Shown here piece after piece: positions 10,579-37,753 of a stretch of DNA of 49,016 nucleotides. Position 1 is the first letter of the stretch; each line of letters starts with the position of its first letter. The stretch covers positions 1 through 49,016 of the IMG/VR virus record IMGVR_UViG_3300029914_000039; one strand, written 5' to 3'. The translations under genes and the position numbers were made by a program. The DNA comes from a virus. A model generated the notes under the pieces. That model had not been told where the DNA came from. It did no database searches and saw only the letters and a list, made by a program, of their open reading frames with translations.

Positions 10579-10709
10579 GGAGCAACACAATGGCAGATAA
10601 GACGTTCAAAGAACCGAAACCCTCTCCCAACGATCAGGCGGGTCTGGACATTCTTGCCCAGGCTGGCTTTGTTCGTGACCCGGAGACAGGGCAGATGGTT
10701 CATCAGGAA
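10579..10709 (+). repeat. inverted duplication, copy 1 (scaffold gene 5' end)
   Basis: Matches the reverse complement of 37394-37522. Bases 10622-10709 are identical to the partner over 88 bp. The homology continues through the start codon and ribosome binding site (GGAGCAACACAATGG at 10579-10593) with a 2-base gap and a few substitutions. Confidence 0.9.
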
Positions 10710-11723
10710 AGTTTTCAGGGCGGCGATGACACGACCAACGATCCCGGGAACCCTTTCGGCTCGGAAGGAACTGTCGAAACCGTCCACACGGTCATCCCAG
10801 GCCAAGACCGGCTGGAGGTAGGCGAGGACGATCCCCTTCCCACCGAAGAAGTGGCAGAGGAATCCGCACCACCCCAGAAGCCCATCAAGGATGGGGCCCA
10901 GACCGAAGAAGGGCTGGCCAAGCGGGAGTCCGATGCCCGCGAAGCACAGAGGGCCATGGGCAAAGCCCAGGCGAAACTGGAAGCCACGCTCGCTCAGGTC
11001 AACAAGAAGTTTGGCGACCTCGATGAGCAGATCCAGAGGCTTTCTACCCTCCAGGTTACGTCTGGTGGCATCCCCACCGACCTAAACCCTGCTGATGCGG
11101 CCACGGTCACGCAGTATCGGGAGGACTACCCTGAAGCCATTGGGGTCATGGAAGCCCTGATCGCCCCCCTGTACCAGATCATCGGAGACCTGCGGGAGCA
11201 GGTTAAGGCAGTCGTCCAGAACCAGGGCCAATTCTTCTCCAAGATGAAGGAGGAGGAAGTCTTCAGCGGGATTTACCATAAGATCCCGAAGGAGAAGGTA
11301 GCGTCCCTCACCACGGACCCCGTTTTCCTGGATTGGTTGGCAAGCAAGCCCCCAGTCAAGGGTAAGTACTACGTGGATGTGCTCAACAATACGAGCAGGT
11401 ACACGTCCGAAGAGGCGCTTGATGTGTTCAAGGATTTTTCCAGGGACACTGGCGTTGACCTAGGCCTGAACGGGAAACCGGCGCGAGTCGCCCACCCCAT
11501 GGACACTGCCCCCAGAGTCCGAACCGGAAGTGCGCTCCCGCCACCTCCCTCACTTCAACCTGAAACCCCCACGGAAGACACCCCTCTGTCGCTCGCCGAA
11601 CTGGCCACTTTTGGAAGAGACCTCCAGAACGCCAGAACGGAACGGGAGCGGGAAGTCCTCCGCAAACGCTTTGCCGCATCCACGATCAACATTGACGGGC
11701 GGAATGCTCCGCAGTTCGCCTAG
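10590..11723 (+). CDS. capsid scaffolding protein
   Basis: 377-aa acidic, low-hydrophobicity protein immediately upstream of the major capsid gene. It is rich in Glu, Gln, Lys and Pro, with a long predicted coiled coil (AQRAMGKAQAKLEATLAQV, about residues 115-150, and further helices to about 230) and a C-terminal helix rich in Arg/Glu (RTEREREVLRKRF) near residues 350-362, like the capsid-binding helices of P22/T7 scaffolds. Scaffolds guide procapsid assembly and leave before maturation. The first 40 codons, including the ribosome binding site, are duplicated in inverted orientation at 37394-37522. Ribosome binding site: GGAG 8 bases before ATG 10590. Confidence 0.8.
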   Translation: MADKTFKEPKPSPNDQAGLDILAQAGFVRDPETGQMVHQESFQGGDDTTNDPGNPFGSEGTVETVHTVIPGQDRLEVGEDDPLPTEEVAEESAPPQKPIKDGAQTEEGLAKRESDAREAQRAMGKAQAKLEATLAQVNKKFGDLDEQIQRLSTLQVTSGGIPTDLNPADAATVTQYREDYPEAIGVMEALIAPLYQIIGDLREQVKAVVQNQGQFFSKMKEEEVFSGIYHKIPKEKVASLTTDPVFLDWLASKPPVKGKYYVDVLNNTSRYTSEEALDVFKDFSRDTGVDLGLNGKPARVAHPMDTAPRVRTGSALPPPPSLQPETPTEDTPLSLAELATFGRDLQNARTEREREVLRKRFAASTINIDGRNAPQFA

Positions 11724-11762
11724 TTGTTGACGGGATCCGGCACCACCTGAAAGGAATCCATC

Positions 11763-12734
11763 ATGGCCATTATCCGCGATCCCAACCCCAGCCCAATGAC
11801 GGGCGTCACCGACTCCAGCCAGCCCCTCTTGATCGAACAGATCGTGGAAGGTCTGACCATGGACATCATGCGCCGGGAGTCCTTCCTGGGCCGCATCGCC
11901 AACACGGAAGCGCTGAAGAAGCTCGAAAACTTCGGTGACACCATCACCTTCCGCATCCTCAATCCCCCCCCGATCATGCCCTACATCATGAACCAGGATC
12001 TGGTTCCCACGGCCACGACCGGCAACAACTTCTCCATCACGGTCAACAACGCCTTCTACGGCTACCCGACCCTCGACCCCATCGACATCAAGCAGATCAA
12101 CGTGCCGCTCATGGGCAACCTGGCGCGTATGCTGGCCGATGCCCACGCCGAGAACGAGTACAACGTGGTCGTCTCCGGCCTGATCACCACGGTTTATGGC
12201 GCCACCGTCATGAACTACGAAGGCCAGGTCCCCGGCACGGTCGCCTACAACCCCACCACCCCCATCACCCCGGCTTCGACCTCCAGGACGGACGCCGCTG
12301 ACTACATCGTCAACCAGTTCATCAGCGCCCGCAAGGCTTACAACCAGCTTGCGATCCCGCGCAAGGGCCGGTACGCGATGGTCAATTCCGATGTGGAACA
12401 GATCCTGCTCGAAAGCGACCAGTTCACCTACCAGATCAGCGGCGAGCAGAACCGGAAGGCCATCGAAGACGGCGATTTCGGCATGAAGGTGGCCGGCTTC
12501 GACATCATCGTGACCGACTCCATCCCCACCGCCACCTACAACGGCCAGACCAACATCGCGCAGTGCGTGCTCGGGCACCAGAATGGGCTGGGCTTCATTC
12601 GCCAGCTCATGGAGACCGACATCAACTTCAAGATGCAGACCAAGTTCAACCGCGCTTGCCGGCAGTTGGACGTTTTCGGCTACGGTCTCAGCGACTCCCG
12701 CTACATGGGCGCTCTCCCGGTCAAGGTGGCCTAA
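11763..12734 (+). CDS. major capsid protein (HK97-fold)
   Basis: 323-aa protein directly after the scaffold. It shows the beta-rich, Asn/Pro/Gly-rich composition and motifs of podovirus coat proteins: RRESFLGRIANTEAL (residues 37-51), GDTITFRILNPP, then the P-domain/beta stretch, KGRYAMVNSDVEQILLES near residue 203, and the C-terminal GFDIIVTDSIP. Codon use is strikingly uniform (mostly C-ending codons, for example atc, acc, ttc, aac), much more biased than in neighbours, as expected for the most abundant virion protein. AAAGGAATCCATC provides the ribosome binding site. A hairpin follows the gene. Confidence 0.85.
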   Translation: MAIIRDPNPSPMTGVTDSSQPLLIEQIVEGLTMDIMRRESFLGRIANTEALKKLENFGDTITFRILNPPPIMPYIMNQDLVPTATTGNNFSITVNNAFYGYPTLDPIDIKQINVPLMGNLARMLADAHAENEYNVVVSGLITTVYGATVMNYEGQVPGTVAYNPTTPITPASTSRTDAADYIVNQFISARKAYNQLAIPRKGRYAMVNSDVEQILLESDQFTYQISGEQNRKAIEDGDFGMKVAGFDIIVTDSIPTATYNGQTNIAQCVLGHQNGLGFIRQLMETDINFKMQTKFNRACRQLDVFGYGLSDSRYMGALPVKVA

Positions 12735-12751
12735 CCCCACCCATTGCGGTC

Positions 12752-12781
12752 CCTGGAGGGTGGTCGGTTCCATCCTCCAGG
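12752..12781 (+). other. hairpin downstream of the capsid gene
   Basis: CCTGGAGG (12752-12759) and CCTCCAGG (12774-12781) form a perfect 8-bp stem with a 14-base loop, 17 bp after the capsid stop. No T-tract follows, so it is more likely an RNA-stability or processing element, or a partial terminator that lowers expression after the capsid, than a full terminator. Confidence 0.4.
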
Positions 12782-12806
12782 CCCGCCCCCTCTCAAAGAG
12801 GCATCA

Positions 12807-13226
12807 ATGTTCAAGCAAGAAGGCATGGAAGACTTCAGGAAGGTGGCTGCTAATACGGTCGCCATCAAGTACAAGAGCGGCAAGCCCATGTTGCTCCGAT
12901 CCGACTACCCGACTTCCCTGCTAAACCAGGGTGTGTCGATCCCCATGTGGGACCTGATGGTCAAGCGGGTTCTGGACGAACCCAAAATGGGCGGCATCTG
13001 TATCTCGGAAGACAGCGAAGAAGGCCAGGAGATCCTGAACGGTACGCCAACCCAGAGCGTAACCCAGGAATTCCTGCTCGGCCTGGGCGACAAGCGGCTC
13101 CGCGAGTTCGCGGAACTGTATGGCGTCAAGGTCAACGAGCGCAACTCCACAAGGTCCGTGGCGCTCAAGGTCCTGTCGGCCATCGCTGACGGCGCCAAGC
13201 CCAAGGAAACTCCACAAGCCGTGTAA
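12807..13226 (+). CDS. hypothetical head-region protein (139 aa)
   Basis: Start chosen at ATG 12807 with AAAGAGG five bases upstream; the frame is open back to a TTG at 12744 but that segment overlaps the post-capsid hairpin. The product is mixed alpha/beta with a basic N-terminus (KVAANTVAIKYKSGKPMLL) and helical C-terminus (DKRLREFAELYGVKV). It lies between the coat and the first connector protein, the place of head-completion or minor head proteins in podoviruses. No family recognised. Confidence 0.6.
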   Translation: MFKQEGMEDFRKVAANTVAIKYKSGKPMLLRSDYPTSLLNQGVSIPMWDLMVKRVLDEPKMGGICISEDSEEGQEILNGTPTQSVTQEFLLGLGDKRLREFAELYGVKVNERNSTRSVALKVLSAIADGAKPKETPQAV

Positions 13227-13238
13227 CGGGGTCCAAAC

Positions 13239-13913
13239 ATGTTCGCCTACGAATATATCCGCGACAGAATCGACCCGATGCGCCCAGACCTCAAGGGCCG
13301 CATGGGGCAATTGGCCTTCCAGGTCGCGGCTAGACGTTTGGCGACAGAGACGCTGGACCTCCAGGAAGAGGTAATTTTCCTCGCTACTGCCGGCTCTGTT
13401 TACACCCAGATTTACACCCCGGATGTGGACTGGAGGGTCGCTCTCTATATATTCAAGGCGGAATACCAGAAGCCAGATGGCCATTACCACCCGCTGCCCC
13501 TGTTCAACCAGGACGCGCTGAGGGATCTGACCAAGCACACGCACAACGACTCCGGCGACATGAAAGGCTACACCTCTGTTGACGGGAATTTCTGGCCTAA
13601 CCGACCTCCCGCAATCGACACCCAGATTCGTGCATGGGTCGCCTACAAACCAATTGGCGACTTTGACGAAGTTGATTTCGGGCCTGACTACGAGGACGCT
13701 CTGATCCAGGGCGCCCTCGCCCATCTGCTCAGACTACCCGGCGAGCATAGAGACCCCCAGGGGGCCGAAACTGCCGAGGTCAGATTTGAGTCCGAATGCT
13801 CACATCTCCGGGGGATCAACCTGATCGGTGATGTGGGGTATTCTAGAGCTTCAGAGAAGCCCCGCAAACATCACTTCGGGGGTGCCATGCGCTCCAACAT
13901 GCTGAGGTATTAG
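13239..13913 (+). CDS. head-tail adaptor-like protein
   Basis: 224-aa protein following the capsid block. A helical, basic start (YIRDRIDPMRPDLKGRMG), a central region WRVALYIFKAEYQKPDGHYH, and a helical C-terminal part (DYEDALIQGALAHLLRLPGE followed by acidic residues) recall the helical-bundle adaptors that sit under the portal (P22 gp4 / T7 gp11 / SU10 adaptor types). The identification rests mainly on position and the late helix (ALIQGALAHLLRL). Adaptors connect the portal to the tail nozzle. Less certain than the product at 16346. Confidence 0.5.
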   Translation: MFAYEYIRDRIDPMRPDLKGRMGQLAFQVAARRLATETLDLQEEVIFLATAGSVYTQIYTPDVDWRVALYIFKAEYQKPDGHYHPLPLFNQDALRDLTKHTHNDSGDMKGYTSVDGNFWPNRPPAIDTQIRAWVAYKPIGDFDEVDFGPDYEDALIQGALAHLLRLPGEHRDPQGAETAEVRFESECSHLRGINLIGDVGYSRASEKPRKHHFGGAMRSNMLRY

Positions 13914-13914
13914 G

Positions 13915-14097
13915 ATGAAGGCTCCCGTCTATCCCCATAGCGACACCACCTTGGGCAGAGATATGCGGGATTGGGAGGAGAAACACCCTGACCTATGGCA
14001 CTGCGAAGGTAGATACGGCTATCACGATGGCCCGTGCAACAGCTTCCCTTGTTCCAAGGTGCTCATCCACCCTGACGACCCCTGGAAGGAGAAGTGA
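13915..14097 (+). CDS. 60-aa hypothetical protein with Cys/His cluster
   Basis: ATG 13915 follows the previous TAG by one base. The product contains HCEGRYGYHDGPCNSFPC, a His/Cys group that could bind zinc, and is rich in Trp, Asp and Pro. It is coupled to the ATP-grasp gene, whose start overlaps its stop. Function unknown. Confidence 0.5.
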   Translation: MKAPVYPHSDTTLGRDMRDWEEKHPDLWHCEGRYGYHDGPCNSFPCSKVLIHPDDPWKEK

Positions 14098-16346
14098 TGC
14101 CACGCAAGATCCTGGTAGTGTCCAATTTTGGGGTCAGTGGTGAACTTGCCAAGCGGCTGATGGCCGAAGGGAACCAGGTCCGCTATTACATCGAGGATGA
14201 GCACTCCAAAGACATCAACAATGGGCTGATTCAAAAGCTCAAGGAATGGAGGTCATCTGTTCCTTGGGCAGACCTTGTAATCTTCGATGACGCGAACTTC
14301 GGTGAGGTATGCGAGGAGTTGCGCGAGGACGGCAAGGCTGTGGTTGGGCCCAGCCCCTACTCTGACAAACTGGAAATGGACCGTGGCTTCGGCCAAGAGG
14401 AGATGAAGCGGGCCGGCATGTCTGTGCTCCCCGACTGGAACTTCAAGTCTCTGGACCAGGCCATCGCCTTCGTGAAGAAGAACCCGGGCCGGTATGTGGT
14501 CAAGCCTTCCGGCAAGGCCCAGGACGAGAAGGCCCTGACCTACGTGGGCAAGATGGATGACGGTTCAGACATCGTTTCCACCCTGGAAATCTACAAGAAG
14601 AAGTGGTCCGGTAAGATCAAAGAGATTCAGGTCCAGACCTTCGCCAAAGGGCGGGAGGTGGCCATCGGCGCTTTCTTCAATGGTGAGAAGTTCATGCTGC
14701 CGGCGTTCCTGAACTTTGAGTACAAGAAACTCATGAACGACGACCTCGGCGTAAATTGTTATTCAGGCGACACAGAAGTCCTGACCTACGATGGGTGGAA
14801 GTTTTGGCCTGATGTTACGGAGGACGACTATATTTGCACACTGAAAGACGGGAAGATTGTGTTTGACCGTCCAGATGCGCTGATGTCCTACGATTTTTCG
14901 GGCGAGATGATGTCCTGGAAAAGCCCCACGGTGGACATCATGGTTACGCCAGAACACAACATGTATGTGCAGGACGACCATTCCCGAAAAGCGTTTTACT
15001 TTGAGAAGGCGCAATACTCATCGACACAAAAAAGAAATATTCTCAGGGGTGGGGGCATCTGGGAAGGGGTTGACGACAGAGGCCAACTTCCATCTTTTTA
15101 CAAGGGGACCATGGAGTCATGGGCCGCTCTGGTAGGAATTTACATAGCGGACGGAAACGCAAAACTGCGATCGCTACAATTTGGGAATTGTCCAGCGCAC
15201 AAGAGAGATGTGTTTATTCAAATAGCCGAGAACGCTGGGTACAAAGCAAAAATGTATGGGAAAGACTTATATATAAATTCGCGTGAACTAGCTGTACATT
15301 TCAAGTCGTTTGGGCACTCACATCAAAAACGTGTTCCACAATGCATAAAGAATGGATCAGTATCCACCATCCTTTCATTCCTTAGTGGATATGGGGCGGG
15401 TGACGGAACGACCGGAAGCACCATGGTTTATACAACTGTTTCAAGGATTTTAGCTGATGATCTCCAGGAGATGCTCCTAAAGATCGGAAGGTATGGCTCC
15501 ATAAAGGTTCGCGATAGAATGGACGAGTCCCACTACCTCAACGGGTCATTGGTAATTAGTAACTATCCCGAAATAAATATCACCAGGAACGAATCTAGGG
15601 TCAAAGCTCTCCTTTCACCAGAGTTCTTTAGACCTGTTCCATATGTAGGCAAGGTCTATTGCGCCACGGTCCCTTCACATGTCATGTATGTGCGAAGGAA
15701 CGGCAAAGCATCATGGCAAGGCAATAGCGGAGAAATGGGGACTTTGGGACGGTGGGTCACGGATGACTGCCCGCTTTACCAGGAGACCTTGAAGAAGATG
15801 GAACCGCTTATGCGGGGTTCTGGGTACCACGGTTACCTGGACCTGAACTGCATTGCCACCAAGGAGGCCATCTACCCCCTAGAATTCACCCCCCGCTTCG
15901 GCGTCCCGACTATCTGGCTCCAGATGGAAGGCATCAACTCCAAACTTGGGGACTTCTTCTACGCGATGGGCGCCGGTAAGCATTTCAACCTGGACACGGA
16001 ACCCGGGCTCCAGATGTGCGTAGTCGTGGCCGTCAGCCCATTCCCCTTTGAGGACCCGCAGGCGTTCAAGAAATACTCCGAGGGGAAGGAACTTCAGTTC
16101 AAGGACCCGACTATCGGTGGCATCTACCTGGCCGATGTGAAGATGGATGGCGACCGGTTCGTCCTAGCTGGCAATTCTGGGTATGCCTGCGTATGTGTAG
16201 GCAAGGGCATGACCTTTGAGGAATGCAAGGAAGACACCTACAAGAAGGTGAAGTCCATCGACCTCCCCGACATGTTCTACCGGACGGACATCGGGCACAA
16301 ATGGAACAAGGATCGTGATCTGCTGGAAGCCTGGGGGTGGCTTTAA
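14097..16346 (+). CDS. PurD-like ATP-grasp ligase interrupted by a LAGLIDADG intein
   Basis: 749-aa precursor (426 aa after splicing). The N-terminus MPRKILVVSNFGVSGELAKR is a Rossmann-like preATP-grasp fold. GPSPYSDKLEMDRGFGQEEM then RAGMSVLPDW and YVVKPSG follow the PurD (phosphoribosylamine-glycine ligase) pattern, in which the ATP-grasp lysine lies in VKPSG. The spliced GVN-SGEMG corresponds to the PurD GPNTGGMG loop, and LEFTPRFGVP carries the metal-binding Glu/Asn-type block. ATP-grasp enzymes join a carboxylate to an amine using ATP. Here, inside the connector gene cluster next to a glycosyltransferase, a role in modifying a virion protein or a host polymer is inferred rather than purine synthesis. 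ATG 14097 chosen because AGGAG lies five bases away; GTG 14094 is the alternative. Confidence 0.75.
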   Translation: MPRKILVVSNFGVSGELAKRLMAEGNQVRYYIEDEHSKDINNGLIQKLKEWRSSVPWADLVIFDDANFGEVCEELREDGKAVVGPSPYSDKLEMDRGFGQEEMKRAGMSVLPDWNFKSLDQAIAFVKKNPGRYVVKPSGKAQDEKALTYVGKMDDGSDIVSTLEIYKKKWSGKIKEIQVQTFAKGREVAIGAFFNGEKFMLPAFLNFEYKKLMNDDLGVNCYSGDTEVLTYDGWKFWPDVTEDDYICTLKDGKIVFDRPDALMSYDFSGEMMSWKSPTVDIMVTPEHNMYVQDDHSRKAFYFEKAQYSSTQKRNILRGGGIWEGVDDRGQLPSFYKGTMESWAALVGIYIADGNAKLRSLQFGNCPAHKRDVFIQIAENAGYKAKMYGKDLYINSRELAVHFKSFGHSHQKRVPQCIKNGSVSTILSFLSGYGAGDGTTGSTMVYTTVSRILADDLQEMLLKIGRYGSIKVRDRMDESHYLNGSLVISNYPEINITRNESRVKALLSPEFFRPVPYVGKVYCATVPSHVMYVRRNGKASWQGNSGEMGTLGRWVTDDCPLYQETLKKMEPLMRGSGYHGYLDLNCIATKEAIYPLEFTPRFGVPTIWLQMEGINSKLGDFFYAMGAGKHFNLDTEPGLQMCVVVAVSPFPFEDPQAFKKYSEGKELQFKDPTIGGIYLADVKMDGDRFVLAGNSGYACVCVGKGMTFEECKEDTYKKVKSIDLPDMFYRTDIGHKWNKDRDLLEAWGWL
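14757..15725 (+). other. full-length intein with LAGLIDADG homing endonuclease
   Basis: 323 codons (precursor residues 221-543). It begins CYSGDTEVLTYDGW (block A) with TPEH in block B. Two LAGLIDADG motifs are present: ALVGIYIADGN (block C) and FLSGYGAGDGT (block E), each keeping an Asp that would bind the catalytic metal. The end is VMYVRRNGKASWQGN, followed by extein Ser. The penultimate residue is Gly rather than His. The DNA is clearly more AT-rich and uses rarer codons (ata, aaa, tta) than the exteins. The endonuclease looks intact, so this element could still be mobile. Confidence 0.88.
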
Positions 16347-16984
16347 TGAGCACTCTGGCGGAACTGGAAGATGACGTTCGTGACTTCGTTGGGCCCGGGG
16401 TCTACTACCGTTTCTTTCTCCCGGCTGGGTCTACGGAATGGGTGGACTATGCCATCAAGTTCGCCTGCCGTCAGATTTGCTGCCTAATGGGCCTGACCCG
16501 GCTGGACATCATGTGTACGCCCAGCAACAACCAAATAATCATTCCTGGAGATTCAATCAAGGTGGTCTCCTGCCAGTCTCGGTGGACAAACTCAGGGGGG
16601 GCTCCGGTGGGCAAGATTCTGTTGGAAAGCACGATCCAGATTGAAGACCAGAAAAACGCGAACTGGAGGTCCAGGACCGGCTATCCCACGGTCTGGATCC
16701 AGGCTTCGGGCTACGCCATCCTCCTGAATGGTCAGCCCCCTTCCAATTCGGTCTTGGTTGGGTATATCCAGGACCCGACCCCGATGGTCAACCCCACGGA
16801 TACCCCTGACCCGCGCATCCCGGCCTACTTCCATCAATATCTGAAGTTTGCGGCTGCTGCTTGGCTCTTGTCGCAGGCAGGGCAGACCCAGGACATCAAG
16901 AAGGCGAGCGAGCATTTCGCCAAATTCACCAACGGAATCGGCGTTGGAGCCATACCTCTTGCTAATGTAGATGTGCGGAGGTAA
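16346..16984 (+). CDS. head-tail adaptor / connector protein
   Basis: 212-aa protein. It starts with LAELEDDVRDFVGPG, has a beta domain in the middle (NNQIIIPGDSIKVVSC; IQIEDQ; YPTVWIQASGYAILLNG), and ends in a helical bundle IPAYFHQYLKFAAAAWLL followed by KASEHFAKF, the hallmark of the phage adaptor family (SU10 adaptor, P22 gp4-like). ATG 16346 overlaps the preceding TAA by one base and has GGGGGTGG upstream; GTG 16337 is an alternative. The related N-terminus of the product at 18155 suggests two connector components. It probably lengthens the portal and stops DNA leakage. Confidence 0.65.
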   Translation: MSTLAELEDDVRDFVGPGVYYRFFLPAGSTEWVDYAIKFACRQICCLMGLTRLDIMCTPSNNQIIIPGDSIKVVSCQSRWTNSGGAPVGKILLESTIQIEDQKNANWRSRTGYPTVWIQASGYAILLNGQPPSNSVLVGYIQDPTPMVNPTDTPDPRIPAYFHQYLKFAAAAWLLSQAGQTQDIKKASEHFAKFTNGIGVGAIPLANVDVRR

Positions 16985-16987
16985 CAC

Positions 16988-18151
16988 ATGAACCCATCCA
17001 TCGTTTTAACGATGATCGTCAGAAATGAAGCCCGTGTTCTGCCTAGAAGTTTGGCTTCTTTCCGCGCCCTGGGTAAGACCGGGTGCGATCTGGCGTATGC
17101 CATCGTTGACGGTGGGTCCACCGACCATTCCATCGAGATCATCGAGCGGGAGATGGTCGGGACCAAGGGTCGGGTCCAGATGGTCCCCCAACCTCAGCCT
17201 TTGGACGACTTCTCTGCGGCCAGAAACGCATCCATTGAACTGGCCCGCCCCCTGGCTGGCTGGATGTTCATGCTGGACGCCGACGATGAAATCGTGGTCG
17301 ATCCTGGGTTCAAGATGCCCGACTTGGACGCCATCGGGGTCGGTGGGTTCGCCATCAAGGTCAGGTTTGGGAGTGATGAATTCTACCGTCCTGCCTTGGT
17401 GAAGTCTTCTCTCCCATGGCATTACGAGGGTGAACTTCATGAGCATATCGAATGCACTGGGGGGTCGCCTATCCCTCGTCTTGAGGGCATCCATATCCTG
17501 GTCCACCCGGGCGAAGGGTCAAGGAGCGCAGACCCCCGCCAGAAGTTCCTGAACGATGCACTAGTGCTGCGCAAGGCACTGGAGAAGAAACCCGGAGACC
17601 CCCGCAACCTGTTCTACCTGGCCCAATCTCTTCGGGACGCAGGTGAGTTGAACGACAGCCTCGCCGTCTACGAGGAGCGGGGCAACATGATGGCGGCATG
17701 GGACGAGGAGACCTACTTCGCCTTGCTCCAGATCGCCAGAATCAAGGCCGCACTAGAACTGCCCTTGGATGAGGTCCAGGAAGCCTACCTGCGAGCCTTC
17801 AACTTTCGGCCGACCCGCGCCGAAAGTCTTGGGTTTCTGGCTGAATACCTTCGTCTGAAGGGGAAGTTCACCTCTGCTGCTTACTTCGCCCATGCAGCTA
17901 TGCAGATCCCCAAGCCCGGGGATGTCCTTTTCGTGGGCTGTGACTGGTACGAGTGGCGGGCCGAGGACGAGTTTTCGGTCGCCTGCTTCTATCTTGGAGA
18001 CCCCGGGGCCAGCAAGCGGGCATGTTTGAGCCTTCTGACCAACCCCAAACTACCTGCCGCCCACTGGGAGCGGGTAAACAAGAACCTGGCCTTTGCCAAC
18101 GAAGCATTGAGCCGCCTCACCCACCCGAAACAGGAACCCGTGAGCGTATGA
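16988..18151 (+). CDS. family 2 glycosyltransferase with TPR-like C-terminus
   Basis: 387-aa protein. The N-terminal GT-A domain shows LTMIVRNEARVLPRSLASF, the nucleotide-binding VDGGSTD (residues 40-46) and the metal-binding DADDE (97-101). The WHYEGELHEHIE segment (about residues 142-153) is typical of GT2 enzymes fused to tetratricopeptide repeats. Residues 190-370 are helical pairs (RNLFYLAQSLRDAGELNDSL; ALLQIARIKAAL) that resemble TPRs. It would transfer a sugar from a nucleotide donor. Its place inside the connector cluster suggests glycosylation of a virion protein or of host surface sugar; the acceptor cannot be told. No signal peptide, so it is cytoplasmic. Confidence 0.8.
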   Translation: MNPSIVLTMIVRNEARVLPRSLASFRALGKTGCDLAYAIVDGGSTDHSIEIIEREMVGTKGRVQMVPQPQPLDDFSAARNASIELARPLAGWMFMLDADDEIVVDPGFKMPDLDAIGVGGFAIKVRFGSDEFYRPALVKSSLPWHYEGELHEHIECTGGSPIPRLEGIHILVHPGEGSRSADPRQKFLNDALVLRKALEKKPGDPRNLFYLAQSLRDAGELNDSLAVYEERGNMMAAWDEETYFALLQIARIKAALELPLDEVQEAYLRAFNFRPTRAESLGFLAEYLRLKGKFTSAAYFAHAAMQIPKPGDVLFVGCDWYEWRAEDEFSVACFYLGDPGASKRACLSLLTNPKLPAAHWERVNKNLAFANEALSRLTHPKQEPVSV

Positions 18152-18154
18152 GCC

Positions 18155-18562
18155 ATGGACTATCTGGAGATCCAAACAGCGACCCAGGCACTCCTGGCAG
18201 AGTTGTCTCCAGGATCGTCTTCGTTTGATAGCCAGTATCTGAAGGCCATCCAGTGGGCACAGGAGCAGATTTGCACGTTCATGGGCCTATCCTATGTAGA
18301 GGCGTTCGTAGCATGGTCAGGGGTCACGGGCCCGACTAGCGAAGTTGTGACCACAGTGGTCATCCCTGATGATGCAATCAGCGTTGTCCGAGTGCTCTAC
18401 GCCATGGCCCCGAACTATATGGACGGTGGATCAGCTTCGACCTCCTCTTGGATGGGATCGGTCGATGGTGGTTCAGCCAGCACTACCCTTTGGGCTGCTT
18501 ACCTCGATGGGGGCAGTTCCCAAACTACGACCGAAATTAATTCAGTTGTTGGTTACCCGTAG
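18155..18562 (+). CDS. connector-associated protein with 14-residue repeats (135 aa)
   Basis: 135-aa protein. The N-terminal half (MDYLEIQTATQALLAELSPG, FDSQYLKAIQWAQEQICTFMG) resembles the opening of the adaptor at 16346. The C-terminal part has three 14-residue repeats: MDGGSASTSSWMGS, VDGGSASTTLWAAY and LDGGSSQTTTEINS (18419-18544). Likely a minor connector or nozzle component with a repeated Ser/Thr-rich segment that could be glycosylated by the neighbouring enzyme (speculation). No exact family recognised. Confidence 0.55.
   Translation: MDYLEIQTATQALLAELSPGSSSFDSQYLKAIQWAQEQICTFMGLSYVEAFVAWSGVTGPTSEVVTTVVIPDDAISVVRVLYAMAPNYMDGGSASTSSWMGSVDGGSASTTLWAAYLDGGSSQTTTEINSVVGYP
18419..18544 (+). 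repeat. three 42-bp imperfect tandem repeats
   Basis: Three in-frame 42-bp units starting at 18419, each coding (M/V/L)DGGS(A/S)... within the 135-aa connector-associated protein. The DNA units have diverged in third positions, so the repeat is selected at protein level and not very recent. Confidence 0.7.
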
Positions 18563-18570
18563 GAGCAACC

Positions 18571-19356: not shown

Positions 19357-19359
19357 AAA

Positions 19360-24036: not shown

Positions 24037-24699
24037 GTGACCGTTCGGTTCCCATCGATCCCTGACAATTCCCGGGAAGCAATCAACCGGGCGCTACAGG
24101 AATTGGCCAAAACGATTGCGGGTAGCACGGCGCAGACGCCGGGAAAGGCTCAGAAGCCAGTCTCGGTGAATGTGGAGGTAGGGGTCAGCCCATCGAAAAC
24201 TGGGCAAATTGGCCCCGTTGGACCGGCAGGGCCTCGTGGTGGGACCGGACCCATTGGTCCTATCGGACCCACTGGTCCCACGGGTGCGGCATCTACGGTT
24301 CCAGGTCCCACTGGTGCGGCAGGTTCCACTGGTGCGGCAGGTTCCACTGGTGCGGCAGGTCCCACTGGTGCGGCAGGTCCCACGGGTGCGGCAGGTCCCA
24401 CGGGTGCGGCAGGTCCCACGGGTGCATCCTACAGCCGATCAGTGTTCGTCATCTCCATCGGGGCTACTGGGGCAACCGGGTCGAATGATTTTATCTACTT
24501 GTGCTCTGCCTCTCTCGTATTCGTCATGCCTACTGCGGTTGCAAATTCCAGCCTCTACACGGTCACTGCGGGGATGTCGTCTACAGTCACGGTCAATTTC
24601 ACCTCTGGGCAGACAGCGAATGGTTACTCCTCGCTGACCCTGAATCCAGGGACTTCGCTTGATTTCGAGTCTGACGGCTCCAAATGGTGGATCAAATGA
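24037..24699 (+). CDS. collagen-like virion protein
   Basis: 220-aa protein with GTG start. Residues 60-130 are uninterrupted Gly-X-Y triplets ([20 protein letters not shown] and then GPTGAA repeats), a collagen-like triple-helical stalk. The N-terminal 50 residues are helical and probably trimerise or attach ([18 protein letters not shown]). The C-terminal 75 residues form a small beta domain ending SDGSKWWIK, similar to trimeric tips found on phage collagen fibres. It directly follows the tailspike and likely forms a second fibre or a chaperone-tip protein. The repeat DNA is an 18-bp tandem array (24303-24426) that can expand or contract. Confidence 0.8.
24303..24426 (+). repeat. 18-bp tandem repeat (about 6.9 copies) coding GPTGAA
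   Basis: Six near-identical units of AGGTCCCACTGGTGCGGC-type sequence and a partial seventh. Adjacent units are identical in pairs, which points to recent slippage or unequal recombination and likely length variation of the collagen-like stalk. Confidence 0.9.
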
Positions 24700-26484: not shown

Positions 26485-26513
26485 TTAGGCAGTTCCTACC
26501 CACGGAGGTTCGG

Positions 26514-27065: not shown

Positions 27066-27109
27066 GAACCCAGCAATCCCGCTGGAACAACGTCTTTTGG
27101 AGGTGAGCA

Positions 27110-27715: not shown

Positions 27716-27732
27716 CCTGAACCGAGGCAGCG

Positions 27733-28176: not shown

Positions 28177-28649
28177 TCACCCATCTGGTCGAAATGGCTG
28201 GGCATAATGCCGAGATGTTCACGCGGGAAGGCGCCCGTGGGTTCGTCTATGGCATGGAAAGCTGCATCAAATCCGCTCCGCAGGTTGAGATCAAGGTCGA
28301 ACACTACTTCGCAGAAGGTCTCTACATGCGGAAGATTTTCATTCCTGCGGGCCTGGCCTGGACCGGGAGGGTCCATAAGCAGGACGACCTCCAGATTATT
28401 TTCTACGGTGAACTGGCGATCTTGACCGAGGACGGGTTCAAGAGGTTCACCGGGCCCGACCAGTTCACCAGCAAGAGGGGGGTGAAACCTTTCGCCGTGT
28501 CTTATCAGGACACGTTGTGGGCGACGGTCCATCACACTCATCTGACTGACCTGGATGAGATCGAGAAGGAACTGTTTGAGGACGAGGAATCGCTTGTCGA
28601 TTTTGCTTCAGGTCAAGTTAAGCAGGAGGCGCTTCCATGTCAGGCATAA
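28173..28649 (+). CDS. cupin-like protein (158 aa)
   Basis: 158-aa protein whose middle forms the strand order of a small cupin: HYFAEGLYMRKIFIPAG, then WTGRVHKQDDLQIIFYGELAI and VHHTHLTDLD. The two characteristic blocks (GxxW..H.....; then Tyr/Glu strands) are visible, with a helical acidic tail. Phage cupins of this type occur next to ejection or fibre genes; their substrate is not known. The stop region overlaps the next start by 13 bases. Confidence 0.55.
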   Translation: MITHLVEMAGHNAEMFTREGARGFVYGMESCIKSAPQVEIKVEHYFAEGLYMRKIFIPAGLAWTGRVHKQDDLQIIFYGELAILTEDGFKRFTGPDQFTSKRGVKPFAVSYQDTLWATVHHTHLTDLDEIEKELFEDEESLVDFASGQVKQEALPCQA

Positions 28650-29380: not shown

Positions 29381-29389
29381 GAGTCAACC

Positions 29390-30952: not shown

Positions 30953-30961
30953 GAGGGTAAC

Positions 30962-33900
30962 ATGTCTAACCCCAAGGTCCAGGACCCCGAGATCGTAGAC
31001 GATGCTGCTCCCTTGCCCATCCCTCTTGCCCCATCGCATGGCCCTGCTGTGCCCCTGGTGGCATCCCACCGCCCTTCCGCCACTACCACAGGCAACCCAT
31101 TCAACAAGGGCCCCCTGGCACCACGCCAGAAGAAGGAACCCGAAGGTTTGCAGTCTACGGGCGGGGGCAAGATTGGCTCTCTGACCAGTTCGACCGCGAC
31201 ATCCGTAGGCGGGGTCAAGGATCTGCTGGGGCGAACAGTGGCCTCTGCCGGGGAAAGTCTGTTTAGCACTCTGGGGTTGCCTCAGAAGGCGGCTAAGGTG
31301 TGGGACCGGGTGAAGCAGGAACACCCCGTTTTCGCTGATCTGGTTGGCCGGTCTGCTCCGGGTATGAACCTGGGTCTTGATCTAGCCCTCAAGACGGTTG
31401 GCCCCATGCTCCCCGAGAAAGATTTTGTTACGCCGGTCATCAAGGCGGCAGATGAAACCTTGGAACGGCTGGGCATCCACAAAGACACAGCCATGGGGCA
31501 AGTAGGCGAGACCGTGGGTGGCATCTCTGGTGGCGTGACTAAGGCTTCTGTCCTGGGCCCGGTGGCACTGCCCTTCTTCGCTGTCGAGGGTGGCATAGAC
31601 AAGACGGTTCAGGCTTTGGACGGAGGCAGTTCTCTGAACAGGTCTCTCGCCGCTGGAACGGTTAATGCCCTGACTGCTGCCACGATCATGAAGTTGGCCG
31701 GTGGCAACCCAAAGGCAGGCGAAGCTGTCTACAATTCGTTCCTTAAACTAGCAGCGAAGAAGGCAGCCACAGGGACAGGCATGGGCACTGCCTTTGGTGC
31801 TACTGATTTGGCCATAGACAAGTTCATCCTGAACAAGAACATGACCTGGGGCCAGGCCGGCCATTCGATGCTGAGCTCCATCAAAACGATGCTGGGGTAT
31901 GAACTGGCCGGTGGCATCAAGCCGGCCAGGATGCTGTTTGAGGGGAAGCAGATCGCGGGTCAGTATGCATCTCCAGAAGATGCCCATGCCGACATCGTGC
32001 CCAAACTGGTGGATGCCTACGCCTCTGGGGACAAGAAAGAGATCGACCGTCAATACGCTAAGCATCAAGCCGTCGTCTACGCCCAGCAGGCAGGCATCCC
32101 ATTCAAGGGGGCCAAGGCCGTTTCTGGCGCCGAGCAAATACCTCATGCCCTACGTGTGGTTGAGGCATCCAAACCTACAGAGGAGGCTACCAATGCCAGC
32201 GAAGTCGAAGGCACAACTCCGGTGGGTGAACAGCCCGGCGGGGCACAAGGCCCTGGGGGAGAAGGGCGTGAAGGAGTGGGACAAGGCGTCGAAGGGGAAG
32301 CATCTCCCGGAGAAGGTGAAGCACCCAAAGAAAAAGGCAAGACGCTAGACGAGATGGCTCCGACCATTCCGGCTGCACTGAAGGACCGGTTCCAGGAGGA
32401 CGTTGCCGCCGGTAAGCGGCACGATGCCGATCTGGCCGACCTGGAAGCCGAAGCCCAGCGCCGGGAGGGAATCTTCCGCAAGAAGATCAAGCAGAGGGTC
32501 TTCGCCGCCAAGGGAGGGAAGGGAAAGCCCCCCTCCGAGAAGGAGATCGACGCCTTCATCCAGCGGGATGCCAAGAGCAAGGACGAACATGATGCCATCC
32601 AGTCCCGGAAGGTTTTCATCGAGGTTCAGCGGGAAGCCAACGAGAAGGCCAGAGAAGCAACCGCAGAGAAGTGGCGCAAGGTTGTCCCGGAAACGCAGGG
32701 GCAGGAGCCGGAAGCCGAGGAACCGAAACCCGCGAGTGAAGCGCCTACCGCCGTTCCCGAGGCTCCGGAAGAGAACCCCGAACCGGCGAAGGCTGAGGAA
32801 CCTGTCCGGGCCCCTGAAAAAAAAGAGGAACCCAAGGTTGAAAAGCGGGTGAAGGGAGAGAAGGTCAAGGTCACCTCTCCCCCTCCCCCTGTGATACAGC
32901 AGCAGCAGACTCCCGCTGCTGCCGCGCCCGGCACCGGGGCTCCGATCCCTGCCGCCCTCCAAGGGAAGCGTCGGGTCGGCGACACCTTCTTCATGGATCC
33001 GTCCGAGATGGTGGTGGATCCTGAGCCCAAGGGCACTGAGCCCAAGGACACTGAGGCCAAGGAACCCGTTGCCGAGAAGCCCAAGGCCAAGACTCCGTTT
33101 AAAAAGGAACAGCCTAAACCCGAAGAACCAAAGCGGCCCGTTACCGTGCAAGCGGAACGTACGTTGCCCAAGGAACTGTCTTCGGCCAAGCCTCGTTTCA
33201 ACGTGGGCATGAACAGTTACCTGCCTGTATTTGAGAACCCCATCGACAAGGCTTTGTTCATCGTTGCGCAGAAGACGCCCAGCAAGTCGGACGCCAAATA
33301 CATGGATTGGCTGCGAAGCCATTTCCCAGAGAACAGCGACGAAGAAATACGTAGCATGGGGTCCAAGGTCAGGGGCGAGATCAAGAGGTTAGCCAAGGGG
33401 GAGGCAGGCACCATCGCCATCCCTGACCAGGGACATGCCGAAAACCCCGGAGAGGTTAAGATCACCCCTAGAGCCAAGGCCAAAGAGAAGGTCCAGGAGA
33501 CACTTCCGGGGGACGAGAACAGTGCCGCTCGCCACCAGGCTTACCAGAACGGCGTTACTCCAGATTCGTCCACAGAAGACATCGTGGCCGCTGCCGTCAC
33601 GCCACCAAAGTCCATGGTTGACCCAGAACGTGGTGCCGTGAGTGTCGCCCTGCCCGACAAGGCAGATGTCGGTAAGGTCTTGGAAACCATCTGGGACCGC
33701 ATCAAAGATGGGTTCAAGGGACTTGGCCCAAGTCCAAATGATCGGGTGCGCAAAGCCACGGCCATGCTGAACATGTACGAATCTCTGGCCAAGGCCAACC
33801 GGGTGCAGATGCCGTTTATTGAAGGCCGCCCTGACCCAGAGGTTGCCTCGTCCATGATCGGTGGCAGGCCGCCCTTGCTCGAAAAAGATTCCAATGTGTC

Positions 33901-36187
33901 CGTGCTGGGCCAGAGTTTCCGATCCCCGCACTTCCTTGGGCCCGGGGAACGTGCCTATATCATCGACCGCATCATCGCTGACAGCCACGAAGCATCTCTC
34001 ACTGACGCCCACTCCAGGGTCGTCCGAGACACCCTCAAAAAAGAGGGGATCAAGGATGATTCGGAGATGATCGACAAACGCATGTCGCCTCTCCACGACG
34101 AAATCACCAAATTGGTGCGCCGGCTCGCCCCCCTCACAGCACAACGCCGTAGCAAGGAAGCAGAACTTCTCAAACAGAGGCGACGGGTTAGCCAGCACAT
34201 CCTTCGTGATATGGAAGAACGCGCCCAGGCCAGGGGCAAGAAACTGGACCACGACGATCTGCTCAAGGCCATGGACAAAGCAGAGAAGGCCCCCGAGGTC
34301 CAGGCTGCAAAATCGGATCTCGCCTTGTTCGATAGCGTCCACCAGCAGGACATGGAAGCCGACATCATCGCCAAGAACGACCTCTACGATAAGGCTCAGA
34401 AAGAGATTCGTGACATCGCCAAGGTCTCCCCCGATACCCGGGTGGCCCTTTGGATGGAGCCAGAAGCCAAGCGCCCGTATTGGCTCGAAGAAATGATGAA
34501 GCCCAACGAGATCAGAGCCGCCGAGCGCCTGACGGAACTGAACGCCAAATTCCGAGACGCCGGCAAGAAAGTGGGCCTCGCTATGCGAAACGAGGAATAC
34601 ATCACGCACCTGTTCAGGCCAATGGAAGCCTACCTTGCGGAGACCACCGCAGAAGGTCGTAAGGCCCTTCAGGAAGTCCTCGACTTCCAGCACCGGGACG
34701 ATGCCAGCATGAACCTCATGCCCAGTGTCCATGCAGCCATGAGCTACTACATCCCAACCATTTCCAGGAAACTTGCGCGTCAACCCCTGCTCAACAAGTG
34801 GATGGGGCAACTCAACGACCAGGGGCAGAACGCTTACCAGGACCCCAACAGTAAGTTCTACGCCAAGAACTTCGGTGACTGGCTGGAACGAGAAATCAAG
34901 GAAATGCAGTACCCACCGCACCCTGATGTGGTAGACCGGACCTTGGGATGGATCAAACAGGCTGAGATGACCAAACTATTGGCCGCAAATCCCAGGGTCG
35001 GCGTGAAACACGCCGTGTCCAAACTGGCGAACAACTTAGCCTTCCACCGTTCCTACACTGCCCCAGCCATGGGCGAGTATATGGTCAACCTCGCCCGCAG
35101 GGCCGAGAACCTTCCGCTGATAGGCACAGCATTCAAGAACACGACCGGCAGGGTTCTAGACCTTACCGGGCACCTCAGCGCCGAGGACCAGGCCAAGGTC
35201 CAGATTCTCATGTCCAATCTGGTGCAGCGCCGGCAGATCATGGCCGCGCTGAACGAAGACCCGCTGATGGCCAAATACCAGCAGCCTTTGTTCAATTCGT
35301 TCTTCGGGCACGGAGCCCGGGGCATGGCCGAGAACGTGTTCAAGGGAGCCAGGAAGGTCAAGCGTATCGCGGGGTTCCCTGTGTCCCAGATCGAGGCCAT
35401 GGAGAATTTCGTCAACGTGGCAGCTTCCCTCCAGAGAGGCCAGGATGTCGGTCTGTCCCAGGAGGATCAGATCCGTGGAGCCATCGGGAACATCCTGGAT
35501 ATCTCCCAGCGTGGCGGGGCAGACGCTTCCCGGTTCACCAAAAGCAAGGTGGGTGCGTTGACGGCCCTTACGCAGACGCCTACCAAGATGTACGAACTCT
35601 ACGCCCAGACCATCAAACGCGCCGTTAAGGGCGAGAAGGACATCTATGGGACCACTGGAGCAACCGACCTGATCTCCATGATGGCCGTTCATGGAGCCCT
35701 GATCGCCTTGGGGGAGAAGTCCGGGAAGATGGTTGGGAAGCGAGGGCTAAAACTCTACCACATGCTTTACCACCCACCCGCAATGAACCCAGAGGTGGCC
35801 AGTAAATACGCACAGTACGCCTACCACGAAGCCATGGCCCATTCCGGGGTCGGTGGGAAGCAGCATGAGCGCGAGGCGCTGAGGCTCAAACTTTCGGGAG
35901 ACGGGGATATTCGTAATTTGATAACCCTGAGCACTATTGGTGATATTGGCAGCGACATCAAAAACCTTTCCAATGCGCCGATGGCTTTTGCTAAGGGCTT
36001 GCCTGCCGTCCAGCAGTGGGCAGCCCTGGCAGGCAAGGTCCCCCACTCGTACGAATCCAAGTTGCATTACTTGGCCGGCGTGAAGTCAGAGGACTACGAG
36101 AAGCGCATGGAGAACCTAAGCGTGATGAAGGGGAAGAAGGAATACCTCAACCAGCAGAGGAAGGCAAAGCGTCCCTTGAACGAGTGA
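30962..36187 (+). CDS. giant internal virion / pilot protein (1741 aa)
   Basis: The longest gene of the window, last of the ejection trio. Residues 150-330 contain Gly/Ala-rich hydrophobic helices (GETVGGISGGVTKASVLGPV, TLALMKLAGG-like blocks) that could insert in membranes. Residues 418-460 are Gly/Glu-rich, and 575-735 are a Pro/Glu/Lys-rich linker (AEEPKPASEAPTAVPEAPEE, EPEPKGTEPKDTEAKEPVAE), probably extended. Residues 960-1740 are helical and soluble with coiled-coil stretches. The design fits a T7 gp16-like ejection protein, but no lytic-transglycosylase motif was seen at the N-terminus, so peptidoglycan digestion must come from elsewhere or be absent. No polymerase or methylase motif is visible. 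Strong ribosome binding site: AGGAGGGTAAC. Confidence 0.65.
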   Translation: MSNPKVQDPEIVDDAAPLPIPLAPSHGPAVPLVASHRPSATTTGNPFNKGPLAPRQKKEPEGLQSTGGGKIGSLTSSTATSVGGVKDLLGRTVASAGESLFSTLGLPQKAAKVWDRVKQEHPVFADLVGRSAPGMNLGLDLALKTVGPMLPEKDFVTPVIKAADETLERLGIHKDTAMGQVGETVGGISGGVTKASVLGPVALPFFAVEGGIDKTVQALDGGSSLNRSLAAGTVNALTAATIMKLAGGNPKAGEAVYNSFLKLAAKKAATGTGMGTAFGATDLAIDKFILNKNMTWGQAGHSMLSSIKTMLGYELAGGIKPARMLFEGKQIAGQYASPEDAHADIVPKLVDAYASGDKKEIDRQYAKHQAVVYAQQAGIPFKGAKAVSGAEQIPHALRVVEASKPTEEATNASEVEGTTPVGEQPGGAQGPGGEGREGVGQGVEGEASPGEGEAPKEKGKTLDEMAPTIPAALKDRFQEDVAAGKRHDADLADLEAEAQRREGIFRKKIKQRVFAAKGGKGKPPSEKEIDAFIQRDAKSKDEHDAIQSRKVFIEVQREANEKAREATAEKWRKVVPETQGQEPEAEEPKPASEAPTAVPEAPEENPEPAKAEEPVRAPEKKEEPKVEKRVKGEKVKVTSPPPPVIQQQQTPAAAAPGTGAPIPAALQGKRRVGDTFFMDPSEMVVDPEPKGTEPKDTEAKEPVAEKPKAKTPFKKEQPKPEEPKRPVTVQAERTLPKELSSAKPRFNVGMNSYLPVFENPIDKALFIVAQKTPSKSDAKYMDWLRSHFPENSDEEIRSMGSKVRGEIKRLAKGEAGTIAIPDQGHAENPGEVKITPRAKAKEKVQETLPGDENSAARHQAYQNGVTPDSSTEDIVAAAVTPPKSMVDPERGAVSVALPDKADVGKVLETIWDRIKDGFKGLGPSPNDRVRKATAMLNMYESLAKANRVQMPFIEGRPDPEVASSMIGGRPPLLEKDSNVSVLGQSFRSPHFLGPGERAYIIDRIIADSHEASLTDAHSRVVRDTLKKEGIKDDSEMIDKRMSPLHDEITKLVRRLAPLTAQRRSKEAELLKQRRRVSQHILRDMEERAQARGKKLDHDDLLKAMDKAEKAPEVQAAKSDLALFDSVHQQDMEADIIAKNDLYDKAQKEIRDIAKVSPDTRVALWMEPEAKRPYWLEEMMKPNEIRAAERLTELNAKFRDAGKKVGLAMRNEEYITHLFRPMEAYLAETTAEGRKALQEVLDFQHRDDASMNLMPSVHAAMSYYIPTISRKLARQPLLNKWMGQLNDQGQNAYQDPNSKFYAKNFGDWLEREIKEMQYPPHPDVVDRTLGWIKQAEMTKLLAANPRVGVKHAVSKLANNLAFHRSYTAPAMGEYMVNLARRAENLPLIGTAFKNTTGRVLDLTGHLSAEDQAKVQILMSNLVQRRQIMAALNEDPLMAKYQQPLFNSFFGHGARGMAENVFKGARKVKRIAGFPVSQIEAMENFVNVAASLQRGQDVGLSQEDQIRGAIGNILDISQRGGADASRFTKSKVGALTALTQTPTKMYELYAQTIKRAVKGEKDIYGTTGATDLISMMAVHGALIALGEKSGKMVGKRGLKLYHMLYHPPAMNPEVASKYAQYAYHEAMAHSGVGGKQHEREALRLKLSGDGDIRNLITLSTIGDIGSDIKNLSNAPMAFAKGLPAVQQWAALAGKVPHSYESKLHYLAGVKSEDYEKRMENLSVMKGKKEYLNQQRKAKRPLNE

Positions 36188-36191
36188 CCCC

Positions 36192-36219
36192 TTGCCCGAA
36201 CTCCAGCATCGCCTATACT
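36192..36219 (+). promoter_or_regulatory. sigma70-like promoter for the GT9 unit
   Basis: TTGCCC (36192-36197), 16-bp spacer, TATACT (36214-36219), starting just after the ejection gene stop. It separates the glycosyltransferase unit from the late operon. A long structured leader follows before the first start at 36391. Confidence 0.45.
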
Positions 36220-36390
36220 GACCTTGTTGGAGTAGAGCCCAGCACAAGCCACATCTCGCCCATCCCGGCCATCGTCCTCCTTGCCCATGCAACATGGGGC
36301 TCTACCAAGGGGGAGTGGCCGGGACTTTTGCCCAGTCAGGGGCAACGTGCCCGAAAATCCATCCACTGATCTTGTCCATATGGAGGGACT
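36220..36390 (+). promoter_or_regulatory. structured 5' leader with competing hairpins
   Basis: About 170 bases without a gene, holding several inverted repeats: TAGAGCCC (36233-36240) with GGGCTCTA (36297-36304); CCGGCCA (36265-36271) with TGGCCGG (36316-36322); CCCATG (36284-36289) with CATGGG (36293-36298); TTGCCC (36328-36333) with GGGCAA (36340-36345). The first two pairs interleave (pseudoknot order), and GGGCTCTA shares bases with CATGGG, so at least two folds exclude each other. That is the design of an attenuator or riboswitch-like leader; ligand unknown, function inferred. TATGGAGGGACT is the ribosome binding site at its end. Confidence 0.4.
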
Positions 36391-36501
36391 ATGAACCGAT
36401 CCGAAGAAGCCCTAGAAAAGATCGCCAAACGCATGTGGTGGATCTCGTTTTGGCTATTCATGATTGCGTTTCTGATGCCCAACCCGTGGTGTCGCAAATG
36501 A
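36391..36501 (+). CDS. 36-aa single-span membrane miniprotein
   Basis: ATG 36391 has a strong ribosome binding site (TGGAGGGACT). Product MNRSEEALEKIAKRMWWISF then WLFMIAFLMPNPWCRK: a charged N-terminus followed by one aromatic-rich membrane helix. Its TGA overlaps the ATG of the glycosyltransferase by 4 bp. It may tether or assist the enzyme at the membrane, or act in superinfection exclusion; both are guesses. Confidence 0.6.
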   Translation: MNRSEEALEKIAKRMWWISFWLFMIAFLMPNPWCRK

Positions 36502-37358
36502 GAGACATCTACATCGCTAGGGGCTCTGGGCTCGGGGACGTTCTCATGCTGGCCGGCGCGGCGAAGGCTATCTCTGCCCGTGGGTTCAACGTACACCTGG
36601 GGACCATGCCGGAATTCGAGCCGTTGCTACGCCTATGCCCGCACATTGCCTCCATCAACACTGGCTACTGCGGCTGGTATAAGTGCCTGGATGATTGCCT
36701 GTATGGCATAGCCGGGGTTCACCAGACAGATGCCTACCTGAAGGCGCTGGGTGTCGAGGAACCAGACCCTGAGATGAAACGGATCGAGCTTCGACCAGAC
36801 ATCAATGCCCAGACGGCCATCGAACCCCTGGTTCATGGTCCACACCTCGCTGTTTTGCACCCAGCTCTGACCGACCCCAACCGGACTTGGCCCATGGCAC
36901 ACTGGCAACGCTTGGCCGATCTGCTCAAGGAGTCCGGTTACACGGTCGTCCAGATCGGGCGTGATGGCCACAACAAGGGCGCCCACACCTTAAACGGTGT
37001 GGTCCAGGCCACCAACCTACTGAGCCTCACAGAGACGCTGGAGATGATCAGGGCGTCCGAAGTATTCATCTCCACGGACTCAGGGCCGGTGCAACTGGCC
37101 GGCGCCACCAAGACCCGTATGGTGGTGATCTACTCTTCGGTAGACGGTCGGCACAGGATCCCCTTTGGATCCAACGCTGCCATCGTCCAGGCACCTTGCG
37201 CCATGGCCGGTTGCTACCGGTTCATGCATGAGCCTTCGATCTGGCAAGAACATGTCAAGCCGGATCTGAATGATACCTTCCAGTTCTGGTGCCCAGCCAA
37301 GGACAACTACGGGTGCCTTGGCCGGGTCACGCCAGAAATGGTGATGAGCGCGATCTAG
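36498..37358 (+). CDS. family 9 glycosyltransferase (heptosyltransferase-like)
   Basis: 286-aa GT-B-type enzyme. RGSGLGDVLMLAGAAKAI (residues 8-25) is the N-terminal acceptor-loop motif of the RfaF/WaaC heptosyltransferase family. HPALTDPNRTWP and HWQRLADLLKESGYTVVQIG form the start of the donor domain, and ISTDSGPVQLAGAT (near residues 192-205) is the conserved TDSG..HLA donor-binding block. Such enzymes add sugars to the LPS core. In a phage this suggests alteration of the host surface (exclusion of rivals) or glycosylation of phage parts. ATG 36498 was chosen by its 4-bp overlap with the upstream miniprotein; the frame is open further upstream to 36294 through the leader. The stop (36356-36358) overlaps the stop of the convergent minus-strand gene. 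Confidence 0.8.
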   Translation: MRDIYIARGSGLGDVLMLAGAAKAISARGFNVHLGTMPEFEPLLRLCPHIASINTGYCGWYKCLDDCLYGIAGVHQTDAYLKALGVEEPDPEMKRIELRPDINAQTAIEPLVHGPHLAVLHPALTDPNRTWPMAHWQRLADLLKESGYTVVQIGRDGHNKGAHTLNGVVQATNLLSLTETLEMIRASEVFISTDSGPVQLAGATKTRMVVIYSSVDGRHRIPFGSNAAIVQAPCAMAGCYRFMHEPSIWQEHVKPDLNDTFQFWCPAKDNYGCLGRVTPEMVMSAI

Positions 37359-37753
37359 AGGTGCAGTTCCGCAGGGATGGCTTCGACAGCGGATTCCTGA
37401 TGAACCATCTGCCCTGTCTCCGGGTCACGAACAAAGCCAGCCTGGGCAAGAATGTCCAGACCCGCCTGATCGTTGGGAGAGAGTTTCTGTTCTTTGTACG
37501 TCTTATTCCATTGTGTTGCTCCCATCATGGCCTTCCCTACATCGGCCTTGGCCTTGTCTTCTGCTTTCAGCAATAGTTTGTGGATGCCGGTGAACAGTGC
37601 CTTGATCTCCTCCTCGCGGTTGGTGATGGCCGCTTTTTCTTTGGTCTCCCACGTTTCCAGACGGGCCTTGAGTTTGCCGATCCAGACCCAAAACGGGGCG
37701 CCCAGGAAGAGACCGGCGATGACGGAAATGACGATGATGAGCAGGATGTTCAC
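37355..37753 (-). CDS. membrane-anchored protein with scaffold-derived C-terminus (132 aa)
   Basis: GTG start at 37753 overlaps the upstream stop by 4 bp, with AAGAAGG before it. An N-terminal membrane helix (MNILLIIVISVIAGLFLGAPF) is followed by a charged helix (KLKARLETWETKEKAAITNR) to about residue 75. The last third (SPNDQAGLDILAQAGFVRDP and ETGQMVHQES) is identical to residues 12-41 of the scaffold protein on the other strand. The shared DNA includes the scaffold ribosome binding site and start codon, here read in a different frame before a 2-base gap restores the common frame. The stop is shared as CTAG with the plus-strand glycosyltransferase. Function unknown. Confidence 0.65.
   Translation of the reverse strand: MNILLIIVISVIAGLFLGAPFWVWIGKLKARLETWETKEKAAITNREEEIKALFTGIHKLLLKAEDKAKADVGKAMMGATQWNKTYKEQKLSPNDQAGLDILAQAGFVRDPETGQMVHQESAVEAIPAELHL
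37394..37522 (-). repeat. inverted duplication, copy 2
   Basis: Reverse complement of 10579-10709. 37394-37481 is identical over 88 bp; the rest has a 2-base gap and a few substitutions. It encodes the C-terminal half of the 132-aa membrane-anchored protein. Confidence 0.9.

Follow-up and report, generated by a model that had tools for sequence, protein, structure and literature searches.

The internal proteins of phage T4 carry a common capsid-targeting propeptide, that of IPII being identical to that of IPIII (PMC9026906), and CpmB of SaPI1 has the RIIK coat-binding motif of the 80alpha scaffold (PMC5644958). Illegitimate recombination mediated by RecET is established according to Shiraishi et al. 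(2002), as cited in PMC2327257, and Red/RecET proteins recombine sequences that are 22-30% diverged (PMC2327257). We analysed a 49,016-bp IMG/VR virus record from an uncultivated phage (the window, meaning the whole of this stretch of DNA), in which the 5′ end of a putative capsid scaffolding gene recurs in inverted orientation, 27 kb away, inside a gene for a small predicted membrane protein. We consider it likely that a single short inverted duplication, specific to this lineage and produced by illegitimate recombination, gave rise to an in-frame chimera, one that is probably neutral. Related records are 57-60 kb in length, so the genome is likely to be incomplete. A tandem array of about six 60-bp units (48562-49016) closes the contig on the right, and the assembly probably stops inside it. 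The related record IMGVR_UViG_3300035661_000073 (G008) has a 127-bp direct terminal repeat (L030:1-127 and L032:17757-17883) and on that account is probably a complete genome of 57.9 kb. No tRNA or Rfam features were found, a host search of GTDB genomes did not find a homologue of the coat protein, and a profile of the large tail-region protein matched two records only, both already among the relatives compared.

The donor lies within a gene order (portal/adaptor-like gene, small ORF, scaffold, coat) conserved in the relatives that cover the region, and comprises the following features:
8072-10267, portal/adaptor-like gene (phrog_332)
10254-10538, small ORF between the portal/adaptor-like gene and the putative scaffold
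10579-10709, plus strand, donor segment with the scaffold ribosome binding site (GGAG), ATG and codons 1-40, delimited by blastn and present in the same context in contigs L003, L004 and L005
10590-11723, plus strand, putative capsid scaffolding protein of 377 aa (P0001), the donor, assigned from synteny and a predicted coiled-coil/helical body
10622-10709, plus strand, 88-bp arm of an exact repeat, encoding scaffold residues 12-40
11763-12734, P22-coat-like major head protein (phrog_267)

P0001 is called a putative scaffold since the name rests on synteny and on its predicted helical/disordered make-up: it stands after the portal and before the coat, and it matches no known scaffold profile or structure (no PHROG match, no Pfam match above cutoff, no PDB homologue and weak Foldseek matches only). 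Its homologues in about ten relatives show 37-57% identity, and the coat proteins there are 66-83% identical. The donor locus is intact, in the standard order and with no rearrangement, in the three independent short contigs listed above (99.96-100% identity). The cultured phage collection held no nucleotide match to either locus, and tblastn returned none for the scaffold and one chance-level match for the recipient (E 0.7).

In nearly all relatives with that end, the scaffold N-terminus carries a recognisable form of the motif [S/P]xNDQAxLDxLxxxGIxxDPxTG, which is most diverged in G007. Conservation is 0.44 across scaffold residues 10-30 versus 0.24 in the linker that follows, and AlphaFold predicts a helix at residues 13-24 and a hairpin at 27-29/36-38, followed by disorder from 40 to 103 (pLDDT about 30). 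A conserved, unnamed N-terminal mini-module (NDQAxLDxLxxLGIxxDPxTG; positions 10590-10710, with homologues in the sequences L038, L011, L030, L033, L060, L061 and L062) is thus marked off in this scaffold family, a disordered linker of variable sequence lying between it and the scaffold body, and in one clade the extra insert GFQVxVDAxGKATV follows it. Either the donor or the recipient protein could serve to find the binding partner of this module.

Direct sequence comparison established that the 88 bp at 10622-10709 on the plus strand match the reverse complement of 37394-37481 without a mismatch, exactly as a preliminary description of this DNA had claimed. This is the longest non-tandem exact repeat within the window, the runner-up measuring 36 bp, and at an expectation of roughly 49016^2 x 4^-88 the earlier statement that it lies beyond chance holds. 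Comparable repeats in the relatives were only tandem, collagen-like or pentapeptide arrays, plus one 127-bp terminal repeat. The homologous block is longer than the exact arms; blastn aligned 10579-10709 with 37522-37394 at 96.2% with 2 gap positions, bearing out the claim that similarity continues through the scaffold ribosome binding site and ATG with a 2-base gap, and a repeat search returned 97% arms at 10597-10709 and 37394-37506. Donor and copy differ by three substitutions and one 2-base gap, all of them in the opening 43 bases of the alignment, with no difference over the remaining 88. In a crude test with a uniform expectation, the clustering of these four events in the first 43 of 131 bp has a p of about 0.01. 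Each substitution (TTC>TAC, CCG>CAG and CCC>CTC) changes an amino acid, and there are no synonymous differences in 43 codons. Scaffold codon 40 is the last codon in the exact repeat, which stops at its third base.

The recipient locus comprises the following features:
36294-37358, plus strand, convergent glycosyltransferase family 9-like gene (Pfam PF01075, 6e-14)
37355-37753, minus strand, recipient ORF of 132 aa (P0002) with a GTG start, supported by translation, codon usage and AlphaFold
37394-37522, minus strand, inserted copy of 129 nt, equal to 43 codons, read in the frame of the scaffold past the 2-base gap, from blastn and translation
37394-37481, minus strand, second 88-bp exact arm, encoding recipient residues 92-120
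37752-38024, minus strand, upstream partner ORF of about 90 aa, with an ATG at about 38024, GGAGG upstream and a coding score of 0.26 in one minus frame

Judged from its sequence the recipient is a real coding ORF, its unique part having a codon-usage log score of 0.43 in the annotated frame versus ≤0.11 in the other five. The protein consists of an N-terminal predicted transmembrane (TM) segment, a long helix, the scaffold-derived module (residues 79-120) and a 12-residue tail. AlphaFold, folding it without an alignment, predicted helices at residues 2-17, 19-89 and 96-104 and strands at 107-109 and 116-118, with moderate confidence (pLDDT about 60-75). The frame assignments made earlier were right: the recipient reads GGA GCA ACA CAA TGG, and the copied scaffold start now reads ATG GAA TAA, by which a free-standing peptide from the copied ribosome binding site and ATG was rejected. 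The identical protein segment previously put at 30 residues exists and is 29 residues long, scaffold residues 12-40 corresponding to recipient residues 92-120. We also rejected derivation of the 12-residue tail from a longer, internally deleted copy; it matches downstream scaffold DNA at 13 of 15 bp, but shuffled sequences reach that score 11% of the time. The GTG of the recipient overlaps the TGA of the upstream partner ORF (GTGA), to which it is apparently translationally coupled. This partner has a cysteine-rich start (CPNC...CLC), an acidic Pro-rich tail and a weak zinc-ribbon similarity below cutoff.

At its other end the recipient stop overlaps the stop of the convergent family 9-like glycosyltransferase gene, which has a homologue at another place in G008. 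The recipient's unique 78 residues gave no significant match in the relatives compared or, through peptide patterns from the N-terminus, in IMG/VR. The unmatched unique part, together with a neighbouring glycosyltransferase that is absent or elsewhere in relatives, places the recipient site in variable accessory DNA. Peptide-pattern searches of IMG/VR with the glycosyltransferase and with the neighbour at 40454-40972 found no relative. A glycosyltransferase family 2 gene lies between virion genes at 16988-18151, and its G008 homologue is placed differently (41060-42124), so that glycosyltransferases seem to be mobile accessory genes. Further repeats in the window include an array with a 15-bp period (41678-42251) in a pentapeptide-repeat protein (41469-42245, minus strand), with similar arrays in G008, G016 and G017, and an 18-bp collagen-like repeat (24209-24445) in an ORF at 24037-24699 after a tail-spike-like gene, similar to one in G011 near 24.4-25.1 kb.

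To place the shared segment among the relatives we utilized a motif HMM built from their scaffolds and run on all of their ORFs, including those of records of 57.9, 60.3, 57.3 and 45.6 kb. It matched the scaffolds and one ORF of the window and nothing else above noise, the copy scoring 51.1 bits and the donor 49.4 bits. The relatives carry the motif on scaffolds only, which does not fit a capsid-targeting peptide of the T4 kind, common to several head-associated proteins and conserved among relatives. No second copy was found in the four long related records (46-60 kb), whole-record searches of relatives with the recipient matched scaffolds only, and no relative carrying the recipient gene, with the insert or without it (an empty site), was found among the relatives and IMG/VR; among the sequences compared the chimeric junction occurs in this phage only. 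Of the two high-identity copies, one lies in its conserved, ancestral setting and the other in a new one, as expected of a duplication by illegitimate recombination. Since the N-terminal motif sits on the scaffold in relatives, in conserved gene order, the scaffold is identified as the donor, and on sequence comparison we regard the direction, from scaffold to membrane gene, as settled.

A gene-fusion event, as proposed earlier, is supported by an identified donor, a coding recipient and a junction in one phage, while the description of it as recent has to be qualified. The copy differs from the donor by about 2.3% substitutions, compared with about 0.02% SNPs (5 in 23.3 kb) between this genome and four same-population contigs over the head genes. 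The duplication therefore probably predates the spread of the population, unless error-prone synthesis or conversion made the first 43 bp.

In the proposed sequence of events, a fragment of about 131 bp containing the scaffold ribosome binding site, start codon and first 40 codons would have been copied into the 3′ part of the membrane-protein gene on the opposite strand, either by a RecT-type protein annealing a single-stranded fragment or by template switching in replication. Two candidate recombination genes are encoded in the window:
45842-47137, minus strand, RecT-like single-strand annealing protein (phrog_2780, 4e-69), candidate agent of the rearrangement
47134-48141, minus strand, RecE-like/exonuclease candidate adjoining RecT, with weak matches (phrog_10477, 8e-4; phrog_7655, 0.056)

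The 2-base gap, arising at or after insertion, abolishes the copied start and brings the copy to 129 nt, in the frame of the recipient, the C-terminal part of which is now the predicted helix/beta-hairpin module of the scaffold N-terminus. The left breakpoint looks arbitrary, as a ribosome binding site and start codon are useless inside another gene, and the new C-terminus, placed as it is at the extreme 3′ end of an accessory gene, is presumably neutral for the most part. A 36-bp exact direct repeat (41398-41433 and 42274-42309, 876 bp apart) flanks the minus-strand pentapeptide-repeat gene, each copy supplying the ending QIRPLIQIA-stop plus TGTCCA to one of two different mini-ORFs (of 23 and about 15 aa). 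It represents another short duplication or else a regulatory element common to both; as a dispersed duplication it would mean that such events may recur in this genome. Homologous recombination between the arms would invert 26.7 kb and, given the shared frame, join the membrane segment in one protein with the body of the scaffold.

Clustered substitutions are not predicted by a single plain duplication, whereas they would follow from a divergent donor or from gene conversion at a later time. The copy could accordingly have come from, or been partly converted by, the scaffold allele of a co-infecting related phage through homeologous recombination, its first third then carrying foreign residues. 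Such an origin would suit the changes being gathered at one end and the divergence that Red/RecET proteins tolerate, and F>Y and P>L, out of the three changes, give the residues that a second clade of relatives has at these positions (DYKxPKLS). The nearest relative with that end, G006, however has P rather than L, the DNA of the second clade is no close match to the copy, the variant peptide QKLSPNDQ was found in no other IMG/VR contig, and two one-base changes can reach Y and L by chance; we consider a foreign allele improbable. A chimeric recipient locus or mis-joined inverted repeat is marginally less probable still. The earlier concern over an assembly artefact is reduced at the donor locus, which is independently confirmed and syntenic, and persists for the recipient locus, covered by one contig only of a metagenome assembly, where repeats of 88 bp are known to invite misjoins. 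Against misassembly, the copy carries substitutions and a gap that set it apart from the donor and so is not the donor read out twice, and the ORF crosses both junctions with good codon usage to a stop overlapping that of the convergent gene.

Selection rather than chance may also have fixed the module, the membrane protein using it to bind the partner of the scaffold (portal, coat, protease or scaffold itself) and so holding early procapsids at the membrane or titrating that partner; we regard this as unlikely. The copy ends at scaffold residue 40, just where the module is predicted to pass into the linker, which is mildly suggestive of a selected module, and the copied piece may be a unit able to fold alone and bind something, by luck or selection. 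The alternative raised earlier, a shared peptide that would recruit both proteins to one partner, is made somewhat more plausible by this boundary. Helix and hairpin are predicted for the recipient as well, the scaffold counterpart is more conserved than its linker, the motif is intact and scores as well as the donor, the positive residues that follow the TM segment would suit a cytoplasmic C-terminus, and the T4 and SaPI1 proteins offer precedents. Intactness would however be expected without selection in a copy that has no synonymous change, the model confidence is moderate and the recipient model used no alignment, and no relative reuses the module, which is limited to one phage. A functional tether through the scaffold-derived module appears rather unlikely on these predictions, and quite unlikely is its more specific form, in which the module on a membrane-anchored coiled-coil protein would act as a tether or decoy, nucleating procapsids at the inner membrane or titrating a partner, for example against a co-infecting relative.

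An inverted duplication, lineage-specific and mostly neutral, would be of an ordinary kind as an event, though its result is exceptionally easy to read, a snapshot of a new chimeric phage gene forming in which donor, recipient, frame-restoring indel and loss of the start codon are visible in one genome. It resembles the mosaicism of lambda Red/RecET-type systems in that a short segment is joined to unrelated sequence without a site-specific signal in a genome encoding a RecT-type protein, but differs in being intragenomic, inverted, 131 bp long and in frame inside another gene, with a presumed mechanism. As in T4 IPI-IPIII (PMC9026906), an N-terminal head-assembly peptide is shared between proteins of a single phage, although here the second protein is predicted to be membrane-anchored and carries the peptide, 29-42 aa in length, at its C-terminus, in one phage and with putative targeting only. 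SaPI1 CpmB (PMC5644958), like the recipient, is a second protein carrying a scaffold motif; CpmB however belongs to a satellite, is a scaffold in its own right and reproduces the coat-binding C-terminus, whereas the present locus places a scaffold N-terminus on the phage's own TM protein.
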